64,000 nucleotides of DNA from Acetispira formosa (nom. nud.) (GTDB taxonomy: Bacteria; Desulfobacterota; Desulfarculia; Adiutricales; Adiutricaceae), in contig CP026657.1 of the NCBI GenBank assembly GCA_023525915.1, positions 1,426,001 through 1,490,000 of the forward strand, read 5' to 3'. The translations under genes and the position numbers were made by a program. The number at the start of each line of letters is the position of its first letter. Position 1 is the first letter of the stretch. Below are positions 8,711 to 51,966 of this stretch, one piece after another. The notes beneath the pieces were generated by a model. It was given only the letters and a program-made list of their open reading frames with translations, ran no database searches and had not been told where the DNA came from.

Positions 8711-9739
8711 GTGCTGATTCTCGGATTGGAAAGCTCCTGTGATGAAACGGCCGCCTCTCTCTATGAAGACGGTCTGGTTCTGTCCAGCGTCATTCGCAGC
8801 CAGGTTGACCTTCACCGTCAATACGGGGGCGTGGTGCCTGAAATCGCCAGCCGGGCCCACCTGGAGGCGGTCGACCTGATCAGCCGCAAGGCTCTCGACG
8901 AAGCCGGGCGCACCCTGAACCAGTTGGACGGCATTGCCGTCACCCAGGGGCCGGGATTGGTGGGCGCTCTCCTGGTGGCCATGAATTTCGCCAAAGGGCT
9001 GGCTTTCGCCGCAAACCTCCCCCTGACCGGGGTTAACCACGTTAAGGCCCACGCGCTGGCCCCTTTCATGTCCCTCCCCGGAGAAGATACGGCCCCTGAG
9101 CCACAGTTCCCGCTGGTGGCGCTGGTGGTTTCCGGCGGACACACCAACCTCTACCGTATGGATGATTATCTGACTTTCACCCAGTTAGGCCGCACTCGCG
9201 ATGACGCGGCCGGTGAAGCCTTTGACAAGACGGCCAAGCTAATGGGATTGGGTTATCCCGGCGGTCAGGTGATTGAGACTATGGCCGAGCGCGGCGATCC
9301 GGAAATTTTTCGTCTGCCGCGCCCCATGCTTCGTGAAGGTTTGGATTTTTCTTTCAGCGGGTTAAAGACCGGCGTGTTGACGCTCTATCGCAATCATAAG
9401 CTGGCCGAAAAACCGGCCGACGACATAACTCTGTGCCATTTGGCGGCCGGTTTCCAGGCGGCGGTGGTGGAAGTGCTGGTGACTAAACTTATGGCGGCTT
9501 GCGCGGCCGCCGGGGCCAAAGGCGCGGTTCTGGCCGGAGGGGTGGCCGCCAACGGCGCTTTGCGCCGGGCGGCTGAAAAAGCGGCTAAAAAACAAGGTCT
9601 GCGGCTCTATGTGCCGCCTCTGGCCTGGTGCGCTGACAATGCGGCCATGATCGCCCACCTTGGCGCACGGCAGTTGGCGGCGGGCCAGCCGCCGCTGGAA
9701 CTCAGCGCTGAAGCCTTTCCACGCTGGCAGGTGGCCTGA
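8711..9739 (+). CDS. tsaD: tRNA N6-threonylcarbamoyladenosine transferase TsaD
   Basis: 342 residues from GTG 8711 (AGGAG 7 nt upstream; the open frame extends further 5' but only into the preceding gene). Begins LILGLESSCDETAASLYEDG, the ASKHA-fold opening. Metal-binding HVKAH is at about residue 112, and 'LVVSGGHTNLY', 'DDAAGEAFDKTAKLMGLGYPGG' and 'FSFSGLKTGV' follow. It transfers the threonylcarbamoyl group from TC-AMP to A37 of ANN-decoding tRNAs together with TsaB and TsaE. TsaB is encoded in this window at 33540-34277. rsmA follows after 1 nt. Confidence 0.96.
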   Translation: MLILGLESSCDETAASLYEDGLVLSSVIRSQVDLHRQYGGVVPEIASRAHLEAVDLISRKALDEAGRTLNQLDGIAVTQGPGLVGALLVAMNFAKGLAFAANLPLTGVNHVKAHALAPFMSLPGEDTAPEPQFPLVALVVSGGHTNLYRMDDYLTFTQLGRTRDDAAGEAFDKTAKLMGLGYPGGQVIETMAERGDPEIFRLPRPMLREGLDFSFSGLKTGVLTLYRNHKLAEKPADDITLCHLAAGFQAAVVEVLVTKLMAACAAAGAKGAVLAGGVAANGALRRAAEKAAKKQGLRLYVPPLAWCADNAAMIAHLGARQLAAGQPPLELSAEAFPRWQVA

Positions 9740-39296: not shown

Positions 39297-39559
39297 AAAA
39301 AAAAGATGAATCGTTTGAAGAGGGTCTCACGAGGCTGGAGGATCTCGTTTCCGCCCTGGAGGACCGGGCCATAGGCCTGGACAAGGCCCTGGCTTCATTC
39401 GAAGAAGGTTTAACCTTAAGCCGCGCGTTGAGGAAAAAGCTGGATGAAGCGGCTGGAAAAATAGAAATTTTGACCAAGGATCTGGCGGGCCGCCCCCTGG
39501 CCGGGTCTTTTAATCCAGAAGAATATGAAAGTGAAATTGATGATGACGAAAGTAACTGA
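39293..39559 (+). CDS. xseB: Exodeoxyribonuclease VII small subunit
   Basis: 88 residues. 'SFEEGLTRLEDLVSALEDRA', 'LASFEEGLTLSRALRKKLDE' and 'AAGKIEILTKDLAG' are the family signature: a helical hairpin that wraps the XseA coiled coil. Start overlaps the xseA stop; its 3' end overlaps the start of ispA by up to 35 nt. Confidence 0.93.
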   Translation: MKKKDESFEEGLTRLEDLVSALEDRAIGLDKALASFEEGLTLSRALRKKLDEAAGKIEILTKDLAGRPLAGSFNPEEYESEIDDDESN

Positions 39560-40478
39560 CAAACGTGGTGAAGCTGAATTTGAATTATGGCGGTTAAAGG
39601 CTGGGGCCAGGGTGGAGGCGGCTCTGGAAAAATCTCTTTCCAAGCTGGACAAGGATCAGCCGCCGGAGGGTTCCAAATTGATAGAAGCCATGCGGTATGC
39701 CCTGTTGGGCGGCGGGAAGCGTTTGCGGCCGCTTCTGGCCCTGGCGGCGGCTGAGGCAGTTGGCGGCCGCCCGCGGGAGGCCTTGCCGGCGGCTATGGCG
39801 GTGGAGATGGTGCATGCCTATTCCCTGATTCATGATGACCTGCCATGCATGGACGATGATGATATGAGGCGGGGCCGTCCCACCTGCCATAAGGTTTTTG
39901 GCGAAGCTACGGCGTTGCTGGCAGGTGACGCGCTCCTGACATTGTCATTTGAAACATTTGCTGAAAACGGCGTTAAGAGTTTGGAGGCCGGCCGCCGCAT
40001 CAATTCAGCGGCTGTGCAGTTGGCCCGCGCCGCCGGGGCCTCCGGCATGGTCGGCGGGCAGGTGTTGGATTTGGCTTTTGAAAACGGATCAGCCATAACC
40101 ATTGAAATGGTCCGGGAGATGGAAAAGCGCAAGACCGGCGAATTGATGGCGGCCGCGCTGGTGTGCGGGGCCATTCTGGGCGGCGGCAGTCCGGCCGAGT
40201 TGCGGACCTTAAGGCAGATAGGCTATACCGCCGGTCTGGCCTTTCAGATAAGGGATGACCTTCTGAATATGAGTGGCGACCCGAAGGTGTTGGGGAAAGC
40301 TGTGGGGAGTGACGCGGCGCGGGGCAAAGCGTCGTTTCCGGCCATACTTGGTGTAGAAGGTGCGGAGCGGGAGTTGGCCTCCCTGACTGAAAAGGCTATG
40401 GCCGCCGCCGCCTCTTTCAAGTTGCGGGGCCGTCATTTAAGTGTGTTGATCAGCCATATGGTACACCGGAACATGTAG
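39525..40478 (+). CDS. ispA: Polyprenyl (farnesyl/geranylgeranyl) diphosphate synthase
   Basis: 317 residues from ATG 39525; ATGs at 39540 and 39543 are alternatives. 'ALLGGGKRLRPLLALAAAE' binds IPP; the first Asp-rich motif is in 'LIHDDLPCMDDDDMRRGRP' and the second in 'FQIRDDLLNMSGD'. The second motif reads DDLLN where IspA enzymes usually have DDxLD. 'KTGELMAAALVCGAILGG' fits farnesyl diphosphate synthase. It condenses IPP with allylic diphosphates, using the isoprenoid units made by the dxs pathway downstream. The stop lies about 40 bp before giant palindrome C1. Confidence 0.92.
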   Translation: MKVKLMMTKVTDKRGEAEFELWRLKAGARVEAALEKSLSKLDKDQPPEGSKLIEAMRYALLGGGKRLRPLLALAAAEAVGGRPREALPAAMAVEMVHAYSLIHDDLPCMDDDDMRRGRPTCHKVFGEATALLAGDALLTLSFETFAENGVKSLEAGRRINSAAVQLARAAGASGMVGGQVLDLAFENGSAITIEMVREMEKRKTGELMAAALVCGAILGGGSPAELRTLRQIGYTAGLAFQIRDDLLNMSGDPKVLGKAVGSDAARGKASFPAILGVEGAERELASLTEKAMAAAASFKLRGRHLSVLISHMVHRNM

Positions 40479-40479
40479 T

Positions 40480-41300
40480 GTGCGGTGTGCGGCCTGCGGC
40501 CGGCTGATATGGAGAAGACTTGGCCCGAAGGGCCAACCAAAGGGCTCCGCCCTCTGGACTCCGGCTGGGGGAGGGCCCACGCGGGCCCTGCCCCAGACCC
40601 CACCCGCGCCAAGGGGCAAGCCCCTTGGAACCCCAAGAGGTCAGGGTCAGATTCAACTTTCTTCTTCCCGCATCGCCGCAACTCGCTTCGAGTACGAAGC
40701 TCAGACAAGCGGCAACGCTTCTTACTGGGTCAGCTTCAGGTGCTATAGGCAGTTTTACGTTGTGATGTAACATTCCGCGATAGGCAGCTTCATGGGCTGA
40801 GTGGTAGTTCACGTATGTTCGGCTTAAATCAGCCTCCCCTTAAAGGCCCTTTCCAGTGCTGTTAGTCCGTCTCTTCGCCACCTATCGCTTTTCAATGAGT
40901 TGCTCATTAAAAAAAAGACGGCCAAGTCTCACTGTTACAGCGCTGGAAAAACTATTGGAGGGGAAAAAGTAATCAGCCGAACATACGTGAAGCAGCAATC
41001 ATTCAATGAAGCCGCCTATAGCAAAATGTAACAGCCGGGGTGTGATGTGGCTGACAGCGGTTAGAGTGGAAGCGGTATGAAGCGTCGCCGCTTGTCTGAG
41101 CTTCGTACCCGAAGCGAGTTGCGGCGATGCGGGAAGAAGAGAGTTGAATCCGACCCTGACCTCTTGGGGTTCCAAGGGGCTTGCCCCTTGGCGCGGGTGG
41201 GGTCTGGGGTAGGGCCCGCGTGGGCCCTCCCCCAGCCGGAGTCCAGAGGGTGGAACCCTTTGGTTGGCCTATTAGGCCAAGTCCTTTAAATCGCGCGGCC
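40480..41300. repeat. Family C giant palindrome, copy C1
   Basis: Imperfect inverted repeat of about 800 bp in the ispA-dxs gap. Outer arms of about 210 bp (40517-40725 and 41077-41285) are roughly 90% identical as reverse complements; they include AAGGGCTCCGCCCTCTGGAC, GGGGGAGGGCCCACGCGGGC and CCCGCATCGCCGCAACTCGC. Inner arms share TTCACGTATGTTCGGCT (about 40815 and 40975-40992). The centre is near 40900. Short proline/arginine-rich frames in the arms are not genes. An almost parallel copy lies at 51111-51924. Confidence 0.85.
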
Positions 41301-41344
41301 CTCCGGGCCGCATCTCCTTGTTCATCATGAGAAAGGCTTGTGTT

Positions 41345-43312
41345 ATGCCCCAAAATGAAGACAGCCAAATGAAGTCTGTCACTCCGCTTCTGGATGGTCT
41401 GGCCGAGCCTTGCGCCCTAAAATCACTGCGCCGTGAGGACCTCCCCCTCCTGGCGGAAGAAATCAGAGGCGAAATAATCAGGGTCGTATCCAGAAACGGC
41501 GGCCACCTGGCCTCCTCTCTGGGAACGGTGGAACTCATCATTGCCCTCCATTACGTTCTGGATACACCGCGCGATAAAATAATCTTTGATGTCGGCCACC
41601 AAAGCTATGCCCACAAAATCCTCACCGGCCGCCGGGCCGAATTCGAAACCCTCCGTCAGGAAGGCGGCCTCTCCGGCTTTCCCAAAAGGGCGGAAAGCTT
41701 TTATGACGATTTTGATACCGGGCACTCCTCAACCTCCGTCTCGGCCGCCCTGGGGCTGGCCTGCGCCCGCGACCTGGCCGGAGACGACCATGTGGTCGCG
41801 GCCGTCCTGGGCGACGGCGCACTCACCGGCGGCATGGCCCTGGAAGCCATGAATCACGCCGGGGCCCTGAAGAAAAAATTCCTGGTCATCCTCAATGACA
41901 ACAATATGTCCATCAGCCCCAATGTCGGAGGGCTTTCGGAATATCTCTCCCTTCTGGTAACCCGCCCGGCCTATGTGAATTTCAGGAAAAAAATCAAAGG
42001 CGGGCTGAACCAGTATCTGCCCTCCAGCGGCCAAGGCATTGTGGACGGCTTAAAACGCATCGAAGACGCGGTTAAAAGCATTCTGACCGAACCAAGCACC
42101 ATGTTTGAAACACTTGGTTTCAAATATCTCGGCCCCTTTGACGGGCATGATGTTTCCCTGCTGATTGAGGCCCTGGACGGCGCTCAAAAACTGGAACGCC
42201 CGGTGCTTATGCATATTATGACCAAAAAAGGCAAAGGCTACGCCCCGGCCGAAAACGATCCCCTGACCTTTCACGGAGTCGGGGCCAAAAGCCCGGCCCA
42301 GACACCCCTGACCCCGGATGAACTGCCCGGCGAAAAAAGTGAGCCGCCAGCTGAATTTTCTTCCGCGCCCACAAAAAAGGCCCTGTCATTTTCCGATGCT
42401 TTCGGCCAGTCATTGACCCAAAAAGCGGAAAAGGACAAAAGAATAACCGCCATAAGCGCCGCCATGAGCCAGGGCACGGGTCTGGCCGGTTTTTTTGAAA
42501 AATTTCCTGAAAGGTCATTCGACGTAGGCATAGCCGAGCAACACGCGGTCACAATGGCCGCCGGTCTGGCCCTGGGCGGCTTCCGCCCTGTCGCGGCCAT
42601 TTATTCATCCTTCCTTCAGCGCGCCTTTGACCAGCTTCACCATGATGTGGCCCTCCAGAATCTGCCGGTCATCCTGGCCGTGGACCGGGCCGGACTGGTC
42701 GGTGAAGACGGCCCGACTCACCACGGGGGCCTTGATCTCTCATTTCTCAGACTGCTGCCGGGCTTTACAGTCATGGCCCCGGCCGACGCGGAAGAACTGG
42801 ACTCAATGCTTGATCTGGCCCTCACTCTCGACGGCCCCAGCGCCATACGCTACCCGCGCGGCAGCACCCCGCTTCGCCCCCTCACGCCCCCGGAGCTGAA
42901 GCCCGTAGCGGGCCGGGGAGTGCGCCTTCGGGAGGGCTCGGACCTCAGCATTCTCACCCTCGGCTCACCTTTGGAGGCGGTACTTGAGGCGGCCGGGCTT
43001 CTGGCCGCCGACGGCATATCAGCCTCAGTGGTTAACCTGCGCTTTATCAAACCTTTCGACCAGGAACTGGTGCTGAATGAAGCGGCCGGAACCTCACACA
43101 TCCTTACTGTGGAAGAAAACTCAATCCTTGGCGGGCTGTATGGAACCGTCAGCGAAACCCTGGCGGCGGGGCTGCCCGGAAAAAGCTATCGTCTGCGCGG
43201 AATCGGAATGCCGGACGCCCAGGTGGCGCAAGCCACCCAGGCGTCACAACGGGCCAGTCTCGGACTGGATGCCCAAGGCATTTTCAAAGCGGCCAAAGAC
43301 CTCCTGGCCTGA
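41345..43312 (+). CDS. dxs: 1-deoxy-D-xylulose-5-phosphate synthase
   Basis: 655 residues from ATG 41345 (GAAAGG upstream); other ATGs at 41318 and 41369 are possible. Thiamine diphosphate site 'AVLGDGALTGGMALEAMNHA' with 'LNDNNMSISPNVGGLSEYL'; 'DVGHQSYAHKILTGRR', 'DVGIAEQHAVTMAAGLALGG', 'DRAGLVGEDGPTHHGGLDLS' and 'PSAIRYPRG' are all canonical. It makes DXP from pyruvate and glyceraldehyde 3-phosphate, the first step of the MEP pathway. The gene is separated from ispA by giant palindrome C1. Confidence 0.96.
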   Translation: MPQNEDSQMKSVTPLLDGLAEPCALKSLRREDLPLLAEEIRGEIIRVVSRNGGHLASSLGTVELIIALHYVLDTPRDKIIFDVGHQSYAHKILTGRRAEFETLRQEGGLSGFPKRAESFYDDFDTGHSSTSVSAALGLACARDLAGDDHVVAAVLGDGALTGGMALEAMNHAGALKKKFLVILNDNNMSISPNVGGLSEYLSLLVTRPAYVNFRKKIKGGLNQYLPSSGQGIVDGLKRIEDAVKSILTEPSTMFETLGFKYLGPFDGHDVSLLIEALDGAQKLERPVLMHIMTKKGKGYAPAENDPLTFHGVGAKSPAQTPLTPDELPGEKSEPPAEFSSAPTKKALSFSDAFGQSLTQKAEKDKRITAISAAMSQGTGLAGFFEKFPERSFDVGIAEQHAVTMAAGLALGGFRPVAAIYSSFLQRAFDQLHHDVALQNLPVILAVDRAGLVGEDGPTHHGGLDLSFLRLLPGFTVMAPADAEELDSMLDLALTLDGPSAIRYPRGSTPLRPLTPPELKPVAGRGVRLREGSDLSILTLGSPLEAVLEAAGLLAADGISASVVNLRFIKPFDQELVLNEAAGTSHILTVEENSILGGLYGTVSETLAAGLPGKSYRLRGIGMPDAQVAQATQASQRASLGLDAQGIFKAAKDLLA

Positions 43313-43320
43313 CACGGCAA

Positions 43321-44460
43321 TTATTTGGAAATGAAAGCTTCCAGCCGCAGTTTCAAGGGGGCGACATCGCTTTCAGAATAATCCGTTTCCAGCATTAAAT
43401 AGGGCAGATTCAGCTCGTCACGCACAAAATTACGGACAGTATAGGCCTCCGTGGCAAAGGGCTGACAACCCTGCCAAACCAGATCGATAACGCCGTCGGC
43501 CTTAAATTCGTCCGCCAGTGCGCGCAGACGCTCATAACGGCCGGGATTTGGCGACATCACCGCGCAGGGCAACTGTAGATAACGATCGGCCATTTCTTTC
43601 AGCGGCGGCTGGTTTTCATCCATGAACAGCGTAACTTTCTTATAGCTGGTGCAGTTGTCCGACACCACCACCACAGCCCCCAGATCCTCCGCCAGCTTCA
43701 CCACCTTGTGGGAACCCATGCCGGAGGGCACTCCGGTCATCACCAGCCGCATGGCCCCCTCGGCCACCGGCGAGCGGCCCTCCGCCACCATGCGCATTCC
43801 GTCTTCATAAAGGGCTTCCAAATGCTTTATCGCTTCTTCCTTATCCGGCAGAAAAGCGGTCTTGAAGCTTATTTCCATCAATTCCAAACCGGTGTAAGGC
43901 GGCCGTGCGTTTTTGGAAAGATCAAACAGATTCTTCAGGGCCGTGCGCTCCCTGTTCAATAACCGGATGGCCCGCGTCAAATCCTCATCACTCATGGCTA
44001 CCTGAAATTTATCCCCCATGCGCCGCCGCAGACGCTCAAACTGATCTTCCCAGTAAGGCCCGGCCGTTTCAGGATCTTGATTCTGGGGCAGCTGTAAGAG
44101 GTGCATCTCTTTCATTTCAGCCAGAAGTTCATACATCTTCTTCTTGCCGTCGCAAGTGGTGTCGGCCACCACTAAATCACTGGAGGCCAGATAGTGGCAG
44201 GAATCCAGCAAGGCAAAGCCGAAGCTGCTTTTTATCAGGGCGCAGAGGGTGCGCGGCAACACTTCCTCAGCCTTGGGGATGGCGTCCTGGCGGGTGCCGC
44301 AGAGGCTGACTGGAATGGCCCCGGCCGCCACGGCCATTTCCATGGGGCTGTAGAGACAGTAATGCCCCACCACTTTCCGGCCAGCTTCTTTGGCTTCGTC
44401 TATCTTCAAGGGGTTGGTTTCAAAAACTTTTCGTAAAACTGTCAGGCTTTCCGGCACCAT
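43321..44460 (-). CDS. Double-cubane cluster / 2-hydroxyacyl-CoA dehydratase family protein
   Basis: 379 residues from ATG 44460 (GGGAGG 5 nt upstream). HgdB/FldC-like fold with 'GRKVVGHYCLYSPMEMAVAA', 'VVADTTCDGKKKMYELLAEM', 'VVVVSDNCTSYKK' and 'DLVWQGCQPFATEAY'. Cysteines 35, 54, 73, 88 and 103 plus three C-terminal ones can bind Fe-S clusters. A single subunit gene with one activator, and no CoA-transferase or second dehydratase subunit, resembles the double-cubane cluster protein pair (E. coli YjiM/YjiL type) more than true 2-hydroxyacyl-CoA dehydratases. Substrate unknown; it would be strongly oxygen-sensitive. The activator is upstream across MITE B3. Confidence 0.82.
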   Translation of the reverse strand: MVPESLTVLRKVFETNPLKIDEAKEAGRKVVGHYCLYSPMEMAVAAGAIPVSLCGTRQDAIPKAEEVLPRTLCALIKSSFGFALLDSCHYLASSDLVVADTTCDGKKKMYELLAEMKEMHLLQLPQNQDPETAGPYWEDQFERLRRRMGDKFQVAMSDEDLTRAIRLLNRERTALKNLFDLSKNARPPYTGLELMEISFKTAFLPDKEEAIKHLEALYEDGMRMVAEGRSPVAEGAMRLVMTGVPSGMGSHKVVKLAEDLGAVVVVSDNCTSYKKVTLFMDENQPPLKEMADRYLQLPCAVMSPNPGRYERLRALADEFKADGVIDLVWQGCQPFATEAYTVRNFVRDELNLPYLMLETDYSESDVAPLKLRLEAFISK

Positions 44461-44488
44461 AATTCCTCCCACAAAATCCGGTTTGATT

Positions 44489-44664
44489 CAGCAATTCTCA
44501 AAGTAAACTTTTTCCATTCAAAAAGTGCCGTGCAGCTACGCAAAAAGTGCGATTTTTGCTTCACGAAGAACTGTTTCGCCGCCAAAACCAGTCGCCTCTC
44601 GCTCCGTCACCCCTTGCGGGGCGACCTGCTATTTTAAAATTGCCATCTACTTTGAGAATTGCTG
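44489..44664 (+). repeat. Family B MITE-like element, copy B3
   Basis: 176 bp with terminal inverted repeats CAGCAATTCTCAAAGTA / TACTTTGAGAATTGCTG (right arm reads CTACTTTGAG). Flanked by GGTTTGATT (44480-44488) and GGTTCGATT (44665-44673), an 8/9 match to a 9-bp target duplication. It sits exactly at the stop codon of the activator gene, splitting it from the dehydratase-like gene. Confidence 0.85.
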
Positions 44665-44671
44665 GGTTCGA

Positions 44672-45493
44672 TTAATCAGGTTCGCTAAATTCAGATAACT
44701 TTGCGGCCGCCATTTGGGCGGCTCCGACAGCCGCCAGATATGGCGCGTCCGGCGGCACTATCACCGGGGCCTCAAGAACATCGGCCAAATATTTTACAAA
44801 AACCGGCAGACGGCTCAGCCCGCCGGTCAAGGCAACGGGGCCGCCGGTAAACAGGCGGCCGCACTGGGCTTTAAGCCGGGCGGCCAATGAAGCCATAATC
44901 CCGGCGGCCAGGTCGGCCCGCCGCACGCCTTTGGCAATCTGGGCCACCAGTTCAGTCTGGGCGAAGACCGCGCACATGCTGCTGAGAGCCACCGGCCGGC
45001 CCTCCCCGGCCAACTGGCTGAAAGACTCATGAGTCAGGTTGAAGGAGTGGCAGACGCTGTCAATAAAAGCCCCCGCCCCGGCCGCGCATTTATCATTGAG
45101 CATAAAATCGAGCACCCGCCCTTCAGCGTCAACCAAGAGGGCCTTGGAATCCTGCCCTCCCACGTCCAGAACCAGCCGCACTTCCGGCGCGGCTCTGGCC
45201 ATCGCTTTGGCCAGAGCGGTTATTTCATTAAAAACCAAAGGTTCAGTCGCCTCGGAAAATTCCAAAGCTTCAGTGAGAACCGAACCGGTCAGGAGGTTGC
45301 GGCCATAACCGGTGACGGCCAGCCTGACCGGTCGGACCGCCTGGTCTAAAAGTTTTCGCAAAACTTCCATAGCCGCCTCATTGGGCTGCCAGGCGCTGGG
45401 CACCGAAGCCGCGGCCAGGAGCCGCCCCTCCGCCGCCGACCAAACGACCCCCTTGGTGGCTACGGAGCCTATATCCAGAGAAATTATATTCAT
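44672..45493 (-). CDS. ATPase activator of dehydratase (BadF/HgdC family)
   Basis: 273 residues. ASKHA-fold: 'IISLDIGSVATKGVVWS' (phosphate 1), 'VRLVLDVGGQDSKALLVD' (phosphate 2), 'LSRLPVFVKYLADVLEAPV'. Two cluster cysteines at the dimer interface are present, in 'NDKCAAGAGAFID' and 'SSMCAVFAQTELV'. Family members couple ATP hydrolysis to low-potential electron transfer into the dehydratase partner, here the double-cubane protein downstream. MITE B3 overlaps the last codons' flank but leaves the reading frame complete. Confidence 0.9.
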   Translation of the reverse strand: MNIISLDIGSVATKGVVWSAAEGRLLAAASVPSAWQPNEAAMEVLRKLLDQAVRPVRLAVTGYGRNLLTGSVLTEALEFSEATEPLVFNEITALAKAMARAAPEVRLVLDVGGQDSKALLVDAEGRVLDFMLNDKCAAGAGAFIDSVCHSFNLTHESFSQLAGEGRPVALSSMCAVFAQTELVAQIAKGVRRADLAAGIMASLAARLKAQCGRLFTGGPVALTGGLSRLPVFVKYLADVLEAPVIVPPDAPYLAAVGAAQMAAAKLSEFSEPD

Positions 45494-45587
45494 AACTTAT
45501 TCCTATAATAGATATTATAAATATCTATCACAGGAATCCCGCCAAGTCAATACCAAGGGCAATCCTCCCCACAAGCCGCCCACACCA

Positions 45588-45690
45588 AGGCCATAGCCAC
45601 GGGGCACCGCTCTTAATACGATGACATCCGCCAAAACCAGCGCCCCTGGAAACCGCCCCCCAGACACAGTCCCGTGCGGACCACGCACTA
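45588..45690 (+). repeat. Family D element, copy D4
   Basis: Plus orientation, upstream of the amino-acid binding protein gene: GCTCTTAATACGATGACAT, CCGCCAAAACCAGCG and the 3' hairpin GTGCG-GACCA-CGCAC. A good -35 (TTGACA, 45697-45702) begins 7 bp after it, with CATTAA at 45720 as a weak -10. Confidence 0.78.
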
Positions 45691-45805
45691 AAGGGCTTGA
45701 CAAGCGGGGGGATTAGTGTCATTAACTTACAAATGTTAAATGAATTCACGCGCCGTATAGAGGTCAGCCAGGCCCCGGCGGCATGCGACCTGGATGGAGG
45801 ACCGG

Positions 45806-46702
45806 ATGAAAAAAATGACCATCGCCCTTGTGGCCGTCGTTTCAATTATGCTGGCCACGACGGCTGGCCTTTGGGCTCAAGACAATGATACCCTTGAGAA
45901 AATCAAGCGTTCCGGTAAATTCACGGTTGGCGTTGTTCCAGCCCTCCCCTTTTCCTACTTCGATGATTATGGAACCGTCATCGGCTACTCCACTTACTAT
46001 TCACACCTGATTGCGGAATCAATCAAAAAAGAGCTCAACATGCCCGGCCTGACGGTGGAATACATTGAAGTCAACGCCGGCAACCGTATTCCCAAGCTGG
46101 TGACCGGTGATTACGATATCGAATGCGGCTCCACCACCAATAATATAGCCCGGCAATCAGAGGTTGCCTTTTCCAACACCATCTTTGTGGTCGGCACCCG
46201 GCTTCTGACCCACAAGGAATCCGGCATTAACGACATTCCCGACCTCCAGGGCAGAAAAGTGGCCGTTACCAAGGGCACCACCACTGAAAGCCTGATTAAC
46301 CTGATAAATAGCGCTGAAAAGCTGAACATTGAGATCATCAGCACCAACGAATTCCGCGAAGCATTCCTCAAGCTGGAATCCGGCCAGGTCGACGCTTTCT
46401 TCCTGGACGACGCCATTCTGGCCGGGGAGCGGGCCGGAGCGGTCAACCCCTCGGACTGGGTGATTGTGGGCCCATCGCAAAGCTATGAAACCTATGGCTG
46501 CATGATCCGCAAGGATGACCCGCGCTTCAAAAAGCTGGTGGATGACGCCGTGGCCCTGGCCCAGACCAGTGGAGAGGCTGAAAAAGCTTTTAATCGCTGG
46601 TTCAAGTCGCCGGTTCCCCCCACCGGCACAAATCTTAATTTCGATATGCCCGATGTTATGCGGAACCTGTTCAGAGCCCCCAATGATGAGCCGTATCAAT
46701 AA
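45806..46702 (+). CDS. Amino-acid ABC transporter substrate-binding protein (GltI-like)
   Basis: 298 residues from ATG 45806 (GGAGG 5 nt upstream). Signal peptide MKKMTIALVAVVSIMLATTA...WAQ. SBP family 3 features: 'LEKIKRSGKFTVGVVPALPF', 'GDYDIECGSTTNNIARQSEV', 'LQGRKVAVTKGTTTESLI', 'SGQVDAFFLDDAILAGE' and 'YGCMIRKDDPRFKKLVDDAV'. The pattern with IECGSTTN resembles glutamate/aspartate-binding GltI. No permease or ATPase follows, so it either uses a distant transporter or serves in sensing. Confidence 0.9.
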   Translation: MKKMTIALVAVVSIMLATTAGLWAQDNDTLEKIKRSGKFTVGVVPALPFSYFDDYGTVIGYSTYYSHLIAESIKKELNMPGLTVEYIEVNAGNRIPKLVTGDYDIECGSTTNNIARQSEVAFSNTIFVVGTRLLTHKESGINDIPDLQGRKVAVTKGTTTESLINLINSAEKLNIEIISTNEFREAFLKLESGQVDAFFLDDAILAGERAGAVNPSDWVIVGPSQSYETYGCMIRKDDPRFKKLVDDAVALAQTSGEAEKAFNRWFKSPVPPTGTNLNFDMPDVMRNLFRAPNDEPYQ

Positions 46703-46773
46703 AAAACGATAAAATGTAAATTTATGAAAATGACCCGCTTCGTTGCCGCCGCAGCGAAGCGGCTCATTGTATT

Positions 46774-46946
46774 GTCAAAACCCTTTATGGCCGAAGTGTT
46801 CCCATTTAGCGGAGGTCGACCGCGGGGAGACGGAGCGCCAGCGACTGGTTTTAAGGCCATAGCCGGTGCCAGCCGGGCAAAAATCACGCTTTTTGCCCGG
46901 CTGCGGGCGGCCAGTTCAGGGGAAACGCCATAATTATAATTGAGGG
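46774..46946 (-). repeat. Family B MITE-like element, copy B4
   Basis: Minus orientation: GTCGACCGCGGGGAGACGGA, CGCCAGCGACTGGTTTT and the hairpin GGGCAAAAATCACGCTTTTT. Ends are diverged and approximate; no direct repeat seen. It reaches to about 12 bp before the xth start codon. Confidence 0.7.
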
Positions 46947-46958
46947 AGATTTGCGGCC

Positions 46959-47732
46959 ATGAAATTCATGTGCTGGAATGTGAACGGACTGAGAGCCATC
47001 AGCCAAAAACCCGGTTTTTGGGATTGGTTCCGCCAGAGCGACGCGGACTTCATCGCCTTTCAGGAGACCAAAGCCGCGCCCGAACAACTGGCCGACGACC
47101 TGCTGAATCCTGAAAATTATCTCAGCTATTGGTCTTCATCGGTGGGCAAGAGAGGTTACTCTGGAGTAGTGACTTACGCCAAGGGCGCACCGGCGGCGGT
47201 CAGTGAAGAAATTCCCGAACTGGCCTGGCAGGGCGAGGGTCGGCTGGTCAGGCTGGAAACGCCGCATTTTCATTTTCTCAACGTTTATTTCCCCAACGGC
47301 CAGAAGGACAACAGCCGCCTGAGTTATAAGCTGGGCTACTATGAGGCACTTTTGGACTACGCCCAGAGTTTGAGAAAGGAAAAGCCGGTGATTCTGTGCG
47401 GCGATTTCAACACCGCCCACTACCCCATCGACATAGCCCGGCCCAAGGAAAACGAGAAAACGTCAGGTTTTCTGCCGGAAGAAAGGGCCTGGCTGGACAA
47501 GCTGGTAGGGGCCGGATACATCGACACTTTCCGCCTCATCAACGGCCCGGAGGCGGTGGCCTATTCCTGGTGGTCTCTCAGAACGCGGGCCAGAGCCTAC
47601 AACATCGGTTGGCGCATCGATTATTTCTTTGTTTCCGAGGAGTTGTCCGGCGCGGTCAAAAAAGCCTGGATCGAGCCTGAAGTCACCGGCTCCGATCATT
47701 GTCCCATAGGTCTGGAACTGGATTTGCCCTGA
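46959..47732 (+). CDS. xthA: Exodeoxyribonuclease III / AP endonuclease
   Basis: 257 residues, normal length. EEP-nuclease motifs: 'MKFMCWNVNGLRAI', 'DFIAFQETKA' (metal Glu), 'ILCGDFNTAHYPIDIARP', 'YSWWSLRTRARAYNIGWRID' and 'VTGSDHCPIGLELDL' with catalytic Asp-His. It cleaves DNA at abasic sites and removes 3' blocks in base excision repair. GAGGGAG precedes the ATG. Stands alone between two family B repeats. Confidence 0.95.
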   Translation: MKFMCWNVNGLRAISQKPGFWDWFRQSDADFIAFQETKAAPEQLADDLLNPENYLSYWSSSVGKRGYSGVVTYAKGAPAAVSEEIPELAWQGEGRLVRLETPHFHFLNVYFPNGQKDNSRLSYKLGYYEALLDYAQSLRKEKPVILCGDFNTAHYPIDIARPKENEKTSGFLPEERAWLDKLVGAGYIDTFRLINGPEAVAYSWWSLRTRARAYNIGWRIDYFFVSEELSGAVKKAWIEPEVTGSDHCPIGLELDLP

Positions 47733-47797
47733 TTCAAAGGCAGGCTTACCAATAAAGCCGCAATTCTTAAGTCAGGCATTCCGGTTCGAATAGTTGC

Positions 47798-47826
47798 TTG
47801 AAGAGTTGCTACAAGTAAGGTATAAT
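47798..47826 (+). promoter_or_regulatory. Sigma-70 promoter of the membrane hybrid kinase
   Basis: TTGAAG, 17-nt spacer, perfect TATAAT. The start would be near 47833, giving a leader of about 260 nt that contains MITE B5. Confidence 0.72.
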
Positions 47827-47901
47827 TCGATATTTCAAGAAGTTCGGCAAATTTTTAACATCTGGCGGCTTCATGACCACACATTAACACATCCGGCCAC
47901 A

Positions 47902-48075
47902 TTAGCATTTCTAATTATGGCCAACCGGCCTCAATCGAGAGGGGTCGAACGGCAGTGAGACGGAGCGTCAGCGACTGGTTTTGACGCCAAAGAAGCAGCC
48001 CGCGAAGCAAAAATCACATTTTTTGCGAAGCTACGATCAGCAACTTTACGGGAAAATGATATAATTGGAAATCGC
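47902..48075 (-). repeat. Family B MITE-like element, copy B5
   Basis: 174 bp, minus orientation, with the alternative terminal repeat type GCATTTCTAATTAT / ATAATTGGAAATCGC. Flanked by CCGGCCAC at 47893-47900 and 48076-48083, a likely target duplication. It lies between the promoter and start codon of the hybrid kinase. Confidence 0.83.
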
Positions 48076-48091
48076 CCGGCCACGGTACTAA

Positions 48092-51000
48092 ATGAACCCC
48101 AGAAAGCCAAAAAAGCTCAAGAGAACCATTGCCATCTACTTTGTTGTGGCCAATATCATCATTGGCCTGATAGGTTTTGGCGGGGCGGCCTATAATTTTT
48201 ACGGCCAGCTCAGGGGCCTGACTATGGACAAACTGGGACAGACCGCCTCAGCCAGGGCCGGGGCCATTTCCGAATGGCTGCGTCTGGCCATGATGGTGGC
48301 CACCCAGCCCTCCCGCCAAATCTGGACCCACCGTGAACTGGAAAAATATTACGACGGCGAAATATCCCGTGAAGAACTGACCGAAAACACCATGCGGGTT
48401 GTGGACGGGGCCATTGTTTACAACAACGACCTCAAGGGCATGACCCGCGTTGACAAATTTGGCGAAGTGGTCATCAGGCGCGGGCGGGAGATTCCGCCCA
48501 ACTTCTGGCCGCCTTTCGCCGTCGGGCAGCGCGACCCGATGGTTAACTTTTACAGCCTCAATGACGACCAGCCGATTCTCCTGGTCTCCACGCCCATCAT
48601 CAGCCGCACCGGCGAAAACCTGGGCACGGATATCATGATGCTCGACACCGATCCCATCCACCGGCTGGTGCAGAGCGGCAGCGATTTCAGTTTTCAGGCC
48701 CGGACCTATCTGACGTCCTATGAATATGACGGATATTTGCTGATTTTCTCGTCAGAGGGTGGGCACAACTGGTATCTGACCCCGGAAATCAGGGAAATTG
48801 TACATGAGGCCAAGGCTGAAGACACGTCCGTTCTCAACAAAAACGGCACCACTTATGGCATAGGGCGAGTCAGTGAAGCCAACTGGCAGGTCACCATCGC
48901 GGTGGATGATAAAACGCTCTATGAACCGGTGACCAGCCAGATGCGGCGCACCACCGGCTATTTCCTGGTCTTTTTCGCCTTTGCCCTGGTGGGGCTGTGG
49001 TTTCTGGCCCTCAGGCCCCTTACCGGGCGGGTCAATCAGGCCACCGACGCCCTGGCGGAAGAGGTGGAGGAAACCACTGAAAAGCTGATTAAAGAATTTG
49101 AGGGCCGCAAAAAAACTGAAACCAAACTGGTGGTGGCCACTCATCAGGCCCTGGTGGCCAGGCAAGCCAAAAGCCAATTTCTGGCCAACCTCAGCCACGA
49201 GATCAGAACCCCCATGAACGCTGTCATCGGCATGACCGATCTGGCTCTTTTCACGGACCTGACGGATGAGCAGCGGTCATATCTCCTGGAATCCAGAAAA
49301 GCGGCCGACATACTCCTGGATCAGATTAACACCCTCCTGGATCTGTCCAAGCTGGAAGACGGGCTGATGGTTACGGAAAGCCGTGATTTCAACCTGCCGG
49401 CCGTAATCTCTCAACTGGTCAAGAACTACGAACCGGTCAGTCAGGAGAAAAATCTCTCATTTCAATGGAGCATTGATTCGGCCATTCCTGAATGGCTCCG
49501 TGGCGATCAGCTTCGCATCCGGCAGGTGCTGAACCTGTTGCTGGAAAACGCTTTCAAGTTCACCACTCTGGGCGGGGTGACCCTGACGGTCAACCACAAA
49601 GGCATTGAAAATAATGAAGATCTGGTGACATTCGAAGTGACTGACACCGGAATCGGCATTGACCTGGAGAGGCTGCCCCACATTTTCGATCCCTTCGTTC
49701 AGGCCGACGGCTCGCTCACCCGCTCAAGCGGCGGAACCGGCATGGGGTTGGCTGTGGCCAAACGGCTGGTGGATCTCATGGGCGGCAGCATTGATATAAA
49801 ATCAGAGCCGGGCCAGGGCAGCTCATTTATCATAACCCTGGCCCTCCCGGCGGCGGCCGGGCATCGCCCGGACGAAACGCGGATAAAGCCACTGACGCGG
49901 GACGAGCTGAAAGGCCACTTGGCTTTGGTGGCTGATGACAACAATATTAACCGCGCTGTCCTGACCGGCTATCTCAAGCATTGGGGAATGAATTCGCGGG
50001 CTTTTGCCAGCGGCAAGGATACGCTTGATTTTCTGGAGGCTCATACTGACATAGTGCCGGATGTTTTCATTCTGGATGTCAGAATGCCGGGGCTTCAGCC
50101 CAATGAGCTTTGTCGAAAGGTCCGGGCCAAATACCCGGACGCCCCTGTAATCTTCATCAGTTCGGAATCAATTGACGGCCACGGCGACCTTTACGGTGGT
50201 GACGATGGTTCTGTCACCATCCTGGAAAAGCCTGTCAGCCGGGATACGTTATCGGACACCCTGGCCCGCGTTCTGGCCACGGCCGTCAAGAAAAAGCCGG
50301 AACCGGAAACCCGCCGCAAGCAGGAAAAACTTTCTGTGACTGATAGTCCCCGCCATATTCTGGTGGTGGACGACAACCAGTTGAATCAGCGGCTGGCGGC
50401 CACTCTCCTGACCAAACGGGGCCATAAAGTGGATGTGGCTGAAAACGGGCAGGAAGCATTGAATTTTATTTTGGGGTCAAAGTATGATATGGTGTTGATG
50501 GATATACAGATGCCGGTGATGGACGGCTTGACCGCGGTGCGGATAATACGTGAAGAACCGGACAAATATGGCCGGGATCTGCCGGTGGTGGCCATGACCG
50601 CCCACGCCCTGCCGGGTGATCAGGAGGCTTTTTTGCAGGCGGGCATGAGTGGCTATGTATCGAAGCCGTTCAAGCCCCAGGAATTGATACGAGCGGCGGA
50701 GCAGACATCAGCCCGCAGTAATAATATGAATAATCATGGAGGAAATATCGTGGCTGCTGAACTTAACCGGGGGGCAATCCTGGAAAATTTCATGGACGAC
50801 GAAGAGTTGCTATTTGAAAGCATCGATCTTTTTCTGGAAAGGATCGCGGCGCGTATGAGCGTCCTGAAAGGCGGCGTTGAAGCTAAAGATCCTGATGTCT
50901 TTATGCCGGAAGCCCACACCATCAAGGGTATGGTGGGGATTTTTTCCACTGACGAAGCCTTTGAAGCAGCCAAGACCCTGGAGGTCAAGGGACGTGAGAA

Positions 51001-51097
51001 GGTTACCGACGGTATTGAAGAAGACATGGCCGACCTGGAAACCAAACTTGACGCCCTGGTAACCGCCCTCCGCCAATGGCGTTCTGAAAGCGAATGA
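48092..51097 (+). CDS. Membrane hybrid sensor histidine kinase (HisKA-HATPase-REC-REC-Hpt)
   Basis: 1001 residues. TM1 (about 13-33) and TM2 (about 288-307) enclose a periplasmic sensor of about 250 residues with Cache-like features ('[19 protein letters not shown]'). A short linker/coiled coil leads to the H-box '[18 protein letters not shown]' with His369. HATPase motifs are '[17 protein letters not shown]' and '[18 protein letters not shown]', '[14 protein letters not shown]'. Two receivers follow, Asp662 ('[10 protein letters not shown]') and Asp804 ('[12 protein letters not shown]'), and an Hpt with His942 ('[12 protein letters not shown]'). No response regulator gene is adjacent. Giant palindrome C2 follows 13 nt after the stop. 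Confidence 0.94.
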
Positions 51098-51110
51098 GAA
51101 GAAGTGGTGG

Positions 51111-51924
51111 CGGCCCACGGGCCGCGGGATTAAAGGACTTGGCCTGAAAGGCCAACCAAAGGGCTCCGCCCTCTGGACTCCGGCTGGGGGAGGGCCCACG
51201 CGGGCCCTGCCCCAGACCCCACCCGCGCAAGGGGGTAACCCCCCTTGACCCCCAAGAGATCAGGGTCGGCTTCAACTTGCTTTTTCCCGCATCGCCGCAA
51301 CTCGCTTCGAGTACGAAGCTCAGACAAGCGGCGACGCTTCATAGCGCATAAGTTTCAACCGCTGTCGGCACCTTCACGTTGTGTCGATGCATTGTGCTAT
51401 AGGCAACAGCATTGGCCGATTGTTATTTCACATATGTTCGGCTTAATTCTGTTTCCCCTCAAAGATTTTTTCCAGCGCTGCAACGGTGAGGCTTGGCCAC
51501 CGTTTTTTTATTGAACAACTCATAATTAAAGAGATAGGCCGTCGAGAGGCGCACAAACAGCACTGGAAAGAACCTTTAAGGGTAGGCTGATTTAAGCCGA
51601 ACATACGTGAACTGCCACTCAGCCGATGAAGCCGCCTATCGCAAAATGTCTCGGACTGACCTCAAGCCGCCTATCGCTCCAGAAACTGACACAGTATGAA
51701 GCGTCGCCGCTTGTCTGAGCTTCGTACCCGAAGCGAGTTGCGGCGATGCGGGAAGGGGAAAGTTGAAGCTGACCCGGACCTCTTGGGGGTCCAGGGGGCT
51801 CGCCCCCCTGGCGCGGGTGGGGTCTGGGGTAGGGCCCGCGTGGGCCCTCCCCCAGCCGGAGTCCAGAGGGTGGAACCCTTTGGTTGGCCTTTCAGGCCAA
51901 GTCCTTTATCGCGCGGCCATAGGC
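51111..51924. repeat. Family C giant palindrome, copy C2
   Basis: About 810-bp inverted repeat between the kinase gene and priA, centre near 51517. Each arm starts with a GCGGCC/GGCCGC mini-hairpin, then TAAAGGACTTGGCCTGAAAG, the GC-rich block AAGGGCTCCGCCCTCTGGAC, CGCCGCAACTCGCTTCGAGT, and an inner part with CACATATGTTCGGCTTAA on the left and its partner at 51598-51612 on the right. Same architecture as C1. Proline-rich open frames in the arms are by-products; the raw priA frame is open back into the right arm. Confidence 0.87.
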
Positions 51925-51966
51925 CGCTTTCCTTTATGTCTGGAAAAGCCGCAATCAAAATCACAT

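Follow-up and report, generated by a model that had tools for sequence, protein, structure and literature searches.

What kind of DNA fills two intergenic gaps with palindromes of more than 800 bp, and how did it get there? The question arises from a 64,000-nucleotide stretch of the Acetispira formosa (nom. nud.) genome (contig CP026657.1, positions 1,426,001 to 1,490,000; hereafter the window), which carries two such palindromes, C1 at 40489-41311 (823 bp) and C2 at 51110-51927 (818 bp), terminal hairpins included. Here, we show that both are members of one dispersed inverted-repeat family, and we propose, with a probability of roughly 0.6, that they are copies of a non-coding repeat: likely non-autonomous mobile DNA that spreads into the gaps behind gene ends, with recombination between copies probably keeping it uniform.

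C1 and C2 are copies of one dispersed element

Pieced together from several match lists, the family occupies 84 mapped places in the 4.68-Mb genome, namely 75 palindromes of ~820 bp, six half elements, and three end pieces. The 75 pairs and six halves amount to 156 arms, which agrees with independent whole-genome counts of 156 arm patterns and 153 patterns of the hairpin h6 (reversed controls, 0 for both); the inner 17-mer TTCACGTATGTTCGGCT was found at 157 places genome-wide (reversed control, 0), and the 236-bp right end of C1 as query gave at least 41 matches with 40 of 205 candidates scored. One copy (L148) lies on contig C3 of our numbering and all others on contig C1. Mean pairwise identity was 87% (0.69 to 0.96) over 71 aligned copies, a set derived from the 75 first loci by excluding L102, L106, L113, and L134 as half elements; the full copies found later (L151, L153, L155, and L330) stand outside this alignment. 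Neither even spacing nor a replication-linked orientation describes the family: the 79 places on contig C1 look random (coefficient of variation, 0.94), and copy orientations are mixed, with GC skew too weak for placing the origin. Literature searches, mostly narrow and covering few subscription journals, found no comparable palindrome family.

An earlier note, made from the letters of the window, had described two giant palindromes of one architecture around an unrelated center. The palindromes are present, as shown by their arm pairs and by single-strand DNA folding (C1, -363 kcal/mol, z = -37.9; C2, -346 kcal/mol, z = -35.4; 0 of 20 shuffles as good), and TTCACGTATGTTCGGCT occurs at four places in the window with up to three mismatches versus 0.14 expected. 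The unrelated center was an error: C2 carries the element in the orientation opposite to that of C1, and after reversal of C2 the cores show 84% identity over their full length, center included. C2 matches C1 best in this reversed form, which is why the centers had seemed unrelated. The same note's picture of non-coding DNA, much bigger than repetitive extragenic palindromic (REP) elements, that could in principle fold into a hairpin or cruciform, is supported, and its two gaps proved to lie between ispA and dxs and between a hybrid histidine kinase gene and priA. C1 lies 10 bp past the ispA stop codon, with 33 bp left before the likely dxs start; for C2, the distances are 12 bp from the kinase stop codon and 39 bp to the priA start. 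The note had also considered an assembly artifact, which is unlikely for the palindromes given 75 copies, differing flank genes, non-identical arms, and a palindrome with related arms (L185) in the relative G004, and single arms paired by chance; as to the latter, 75 pairs stand against six half elements and three end pieces, so that arms normally come paired here. The features of the window are as follows.

40489-41311, plus strand: C1, full element copy of 823 bp in the ispA-dxs gap; its orientation is the reference
40517-40725, plus strand: C1 left outer arm with hairpins h2-h6, 209 nt, 94% complementary to 41075-41283
40766-40862, plus strand: C1 left inner arm, 71% complementary to 40937-41033; TTCACGTATGTTCGGCT at 40808-40824
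40863-40936, plus strand: C1 center between the inner arms, conserved across copies
40937-41033, plus strand: C1 right inner arm; 17-mer TTCACGTATGTTCGGCT at 40975-40991, on the minus strand
41075-41283, plus strand: C1 right outer arm with hairpins h6-h2, 209 nt, within the 236-bp search query
51110-51927, minus strand: C2, full element copy of 818 bp in reversed orientation, in the kinase-priA gap
51131-51253, minus strand: C2 outer arm, upstream side, 90% complementary to 51786-51908
51786-51908, minus strand: C2 outer arm, downstream side, pairing with 51131-51253
51228-51480 and 51558-51810: C2 second arm pair, 77% complementary
39525-40478, plus strand: ispA (farnesyl diphosphate synthase), upstream neighbor of C1
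41345-43312, plus strand: dxs, downstream neighbor of C1, start codon inferred
48092-51097, plus strand: hybrid histidine kinase gene, upstream neighbor of C2
51967-54471, plus strand: priA, downstream neighbor of C2

Covariation is located in small local hairpins

Each consensus arm carries six hairpins, which we number h1 to h6 from the outside in: h1 (GCGGCC-loop-GGCCGC), h2 (TTGGCC-loop-GGCCAA), h3 (AGGGT-loop-ACCCT), h4 (nested CTGGGG..CCCCAG), h5 (CCAGGGGG..CCCCCTGG), and h6, a larger CGCCGC..GCGGCG hairpin. The outer 234 bp of both consensus arms are near-perfectly complementary, the inner arms have common boxes including TTCACGTATGTTCGGCT and a repeated GCGATAGGC-like motif seen by eye, and the center is conserved among element copies.

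Across the 71 copies, 11 of the 12 local hairpins, set by hand from the consensus after a short-span consensus fold had missed some, surpass all 500 column shuffles in their pairing; the twelfth, right-arm h1, surpasses 495 of them. Core positions 54 and 58 undergo paired changes such as T-A to C-G on both arms, whereas position 54 and its mirror partner 765 change independently of each other. From arm to arm, the outer parts form 14,568 pairs versus 14,536 ± 17 by shuffling, an excess of 0.2% that 18 of 500 shuffles reach; the inner parts show no pairing excess over shuffles, and a second arm-to-arm test gave 1,234 complementary cells versus 1,202 ± 22 (p = 0.07). Covariation resides in the small local hairpins and hardly across the arms, and selection on the giant hairpin, which we considered, left a trace at most. 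Within the local stems, G-U (54) and A-C (47) mispairs are about equally frequent; this balance does not point to selection on a single transcribed strand and fits hairpins formed in DNA.

Copies look like shuffled mosaics

The earlier note had taken the two arms of a copy to be especially alike, hinting at conversion or recent duplication, but this did not hold: arms differ by ~10%, and outer arms of the same copy have an identity of 0.902 and those of different copies 0.900. The two h5 haplotypes differ at many bases; one is carried by 33 left and 21 right arms and the other by 25 left and 39 right arms. Both arms of a copy have the same haplotype in 22 of 66 cases versus 23.9 by permutation, without association, and we rejected conversion between the two arms of one copy. 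Mirrored positions of both arms nevertheless carry the same alleles at similar frequencies, and an alternative h6 loop, CAAGCTCAG or a one-base variant of it, is found in 12 left and six right arms. Linkage between variable sites falls from a mean r2 of 0.18 within 5 bp to 0.05 at 40 to 80 bp and 0.014 beyond 320 bp, the level of independence. With the same alleles on both arms and no long-range linkage, the copies look like shuffled mosaics; because the complex h5 haplotypes are common to both arms, recurrent mutation is an unlikely source and exchange among copies the simplest cause.

Most copies lie behind gene ends

A gene 3' end is faced on at least one side by 65 of the 71 copies, and the remaining six lie between divergent genes. 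For the 90 element ends that face a gene 3' end, the median distance to the stop codon is 23 bp; for the 50 that face a gene 5' end, the median distance to the gene is 146 bp. Convergent gene pairs are enriched (25 of 69 copies versus 14 of 140 element-free pairs; Fisher p = 1.7e-5), with no significant depletion of divergent pairs (6 of 69 versus 18 of 140; p = 0.49). These figures rest on our own simple hexamer-based gene caller, by which 69 of the 71 copies had both neighbors; a cruder first gene call gave 13 of 75 divergent pairs versus the 6 of 69 here. None of the 71 copies lies inside a predicted gene, and eight element ends overlap a predicted gene end by 1 to 31 bp, the limits being approximate. 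Outside the element, the left flank is rich in purines and the right flank in pyrimidines.

At the ispA-dxs junction, the element is absent in all four same-genus relatives scored, the aligned gene ends lying 2 to 90 bp apart (of six relatives, one had a weak match only and one no match). It is likewise absent at the kinase-priA junction in all three of the six relatives scored there, the others having partial priA or no upstream gene at the locus. In G001, one of these three, the kinase gene beside priA looks broken.

Truncated copies, SbcCD, and the search for a mobilizer

The six half elements (L102/L160, L106/L157, L113/L158, L134/L159, L154, and L348) have their breakpoints at core positions 406 to 453, all within 45 bp of the center at 409.5. 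An SbcD is encoded in the genome by an intact gene and scores above the model cut-off, and next to it an intact gene encodes an SbcC-like protein of 1,059 aa. In Escherichia coli, an interrupted palindrome of 480 bp has been described to form a hairpin that is processed to breaks repairable by homologous recombination (PMC4245961). Cutting of the folded palindrome at its tip with repair from another copy would account for both the half elements and the shuffling of alleles. Where SbcCD is active, long palindromes should be fragile; ~75 palindromes of ~820 bp are nevertheless present here beside SbcD and an SbcC-like protein, which offers a natural system for studying how bacteria tolerate, repair, and homogenize long inverted repeats.

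Two repeats of the genome each carry a gene for a Y1 transposase that by our own reading is RAYT-like:

L321, 3410-4797: repeat of 1.39 kb with a RAYT-like 222-aa Y1 transposase gene
L322, 3757-5143: repeat of 1.39 kb with a RAYT-like 222-aa Y1 transposase gene

Both end in GTATACTGTCCCC, and AATTTCCGGGGACAG repeats stand beside one of them; neither shows similarity to the element at E = 0.01. The element end pattern has 78 matches in the genome, and those outside the known copies are only end pieces, one further half element, and one site with three mismatches. The 3-mismatch site is weak and shows no further similarity, and no autonomous partner with the same ends was found; among transposases, the search covered the Y1 family only. 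The same-genus genome G001 has 47 Y1 transposase matches, many with internal stop codons, as if a large family were decaying.

Explanations for spread and uniformity

We favor an element in which two arms, each an array of hairpins, flank a conserved center in inverted orientation and whose small hairpins may be recognized, perhaps in single-stranded DNA, by an enzyme encoded elsewhere that would move the unit in trans, following a REPIN-like logic at a much larger size. The folded palindrome would sometimes be cut near its tip, possibly by SbcCD, and a cut copy repaired from another copy, so that alleles would be shuffled and one arm lost now and then. Several observations weigh against this account. 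None of the nine Y1 transposase gene loci has similarity to the element, other transposase families not having been searched for, and none of the 63 of 71 copies with clear enough ends shows a target-site duplication. Nor is there a same-species strain with an empty site or proof of recent movement. Four of the 10 truncations are off-center (one copy without its first 129 bp and three end pieces of 66, 120, and 120 bp), the SbcC match falls under NCBIfam's cut-off, arm-to-arm pairing has its trace of excess (18 of 500 shuffles; p = 0.07 in the second test), and repeat polishing in assembly may have contributed to the mosaic look.

Could the family be maintained and spread by breakage and repair without any transposase, SbcCD cutting the hairpin and a sister copy serving for the repair? 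The central breakpoints of all six half elements, the freely shuffled alleles, and the presence of SbcD fit this idea, as does the repair by recombination of cleaved hairpins from an interrupted palindrome in E. coli (PMC4245961), but repair needs homology and so leaves arrival at new, unrelated sites unexplained, and the half elements could instead be old single-arm units. We regard it as unlikely. Its boldest form, in which giant palindromes persist by exploiting their own fragility, is a picture of folded copies that SbcCD cuts at their tips and that other copies serve to rebuild; all arms would then make up one freely recombining pool, and break repair instead of a transposase would maintain and spread the family. 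This is a speculation that we hold to be equally doubtful. Sites just past stop codons, enrichment between convergent genes, and conserved hairpins would also suit 3'-end structures, either bidirectional terminators or mRNA stabilizers, under selection at gene ends. Such an RNA-level function appears improbable to a somewhat greater degree: G-U and A-C mispairs are balanced, terminator-like sites (a GC-rich hairpin and a T run) number 0 in C1 (shuffles, 1.3) and 2 in C2 (shuffles, 1.8), the whole window has no Rfam match above the gathering score, and relatives do without the element at both ispA-dxs and kinase-priA. Very unlikely, in our judgment, is that the palindromes are real and their allele mosaic a product of assembly or polishing. 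The ~156 near-identical arms are hard to polish; yet polishing would tend to make arms alike, whereas two h5 haplotypes are frequent on both sides and arms differ by about a tenth of their positions.

Comparison with known systems

Among known systems, the REPIN comes closest as a working analog: a Y1 transposase acts in trans to move this inverted doublet (PMC3116915). According to that description, REPIN/RAYT systems share with the element an inverted doublet of one repeat with a spacer that forms hairpins, is non-coding, and is dispersed between genes (PMC3116915). In contrast, the element measures ~820 bp with arms of more than 230 bp and six hairpins each, where a REP unit has 20 to 40 bp, no repeat of the family stands beside either RAYT-like gene here, and its covariation is local and not across the long hairpin. 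As the short unit, the repeat-flanked RAYT, and compensation along the long hairpin all fail, we do not file the element as a REPIN. The element nonetheless carries the inverted-doublet idea of REPINs to a much larger size, with conservation of the small local hairpins and not of the long one.

Bacterial miniature inverted-repeat transposable elements (MITEs; Correia/NEMIS, ERIC, and RUP) are reported to be likewise non-coding and mostly intergenic and to carry inverted repeats, with folded transcripts possible (PMC2229807), and the element has their terminal inverted repeats. The MITEs of that account are ~100 to 200 bp long and mostly have target-site duplications (PMC2229807), in contrast to the ~820 bp and lack of visible duplication here. 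The IS605-related PATEs of Haloquadratum, as characterized in PMC3119063, share near-terminal hairpins and the lack of both a target duplication and a transposase; they are described there as without terminal inverted repeats, whereas inverted repetition extends through most of the element, and the IS200-type loci searched have no sequence in common with it. REP sequences serving as insertion-sequence targets resemble the family in that mobile DNA sits at fixed points of a repeat (PMC1525189), here an IS110-family element twice and phage-like DNA twice, but the REPs of that report are short and the hairpins here belong to a giant palindrome. Long palindromes placed in the E. coli chromosome are comparable in size and interrupted structure (480 bp; PMC4245961), and differ in that our element is natural, imperfect, and present in ~75 copies. 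We thus class the element as a new, giant variant of non-autonomous palindromic repeats, with no mobilizer found among the Y1 transposase loci.

Relatives and other databases

Related arms are restricted to the genus among the genomes searched, being found in G004 and G002 with one hairpin in G006. The h6 pattern, sought in 63 genomes of the class, occurred 153 times in the A. formosa genome (G000), 13 times in G004, once in G006, and in none of the other 60, and BLAST with C1 against 37 genomes of the family found similarity in G000, G004, and G002 only. In G004, locus L185 forms a palindrome whose arms are 196 bp long, and in G002, locus L167 has ~75-bp inverted arms; several further G004 arms appear single, on an assembly whose contigs are short. 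The inner 17-mer matched 13 of 59 relatives (15 matches with one or two mismatches versus 5 for the reversed control), and because these 15 loci lack a long palindrome and their similarity to the element is short and weak, the matches are read as chance. By Dxs, the closest named relatives are Candidatus Adiutrix metagenome-assembled genomes at 67 to 68% identity, which represent inhabitants of termite guts. C1 had no match among phages and plasmids, an h6 33-mer no exact match among viral contigs, and a 26-mer no match in the genome_contigs collection.

DNA inserted in or beside copies

The same point of h3 is occupied in two copies by an IS110-family element (L077:857-2153 and L102:866-2162; PF01548 and PF02371 transposase), which looks as if it targets the palindrome repeat. 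Phage-like inserts lie in the h6 loop of two further copies (L149:4443-8095 and L150:4887-11350) and encode a D12 DNA methyltransferase, a tail-fiber domain, and CI-like or helix-turn-helix repressors, their first 2.7 kb being 99.8% identical. The alternative h6 loop sequence CAAGCTCAG is also the left-junction sequence of both phage-like inserts, and may be either the allele that they target or a scar left by excision. A Septu-like pair (PtuA and PtuB models; L347:6916-9130) adjoins a 120-bp palindrome end piece at 9430-9547.

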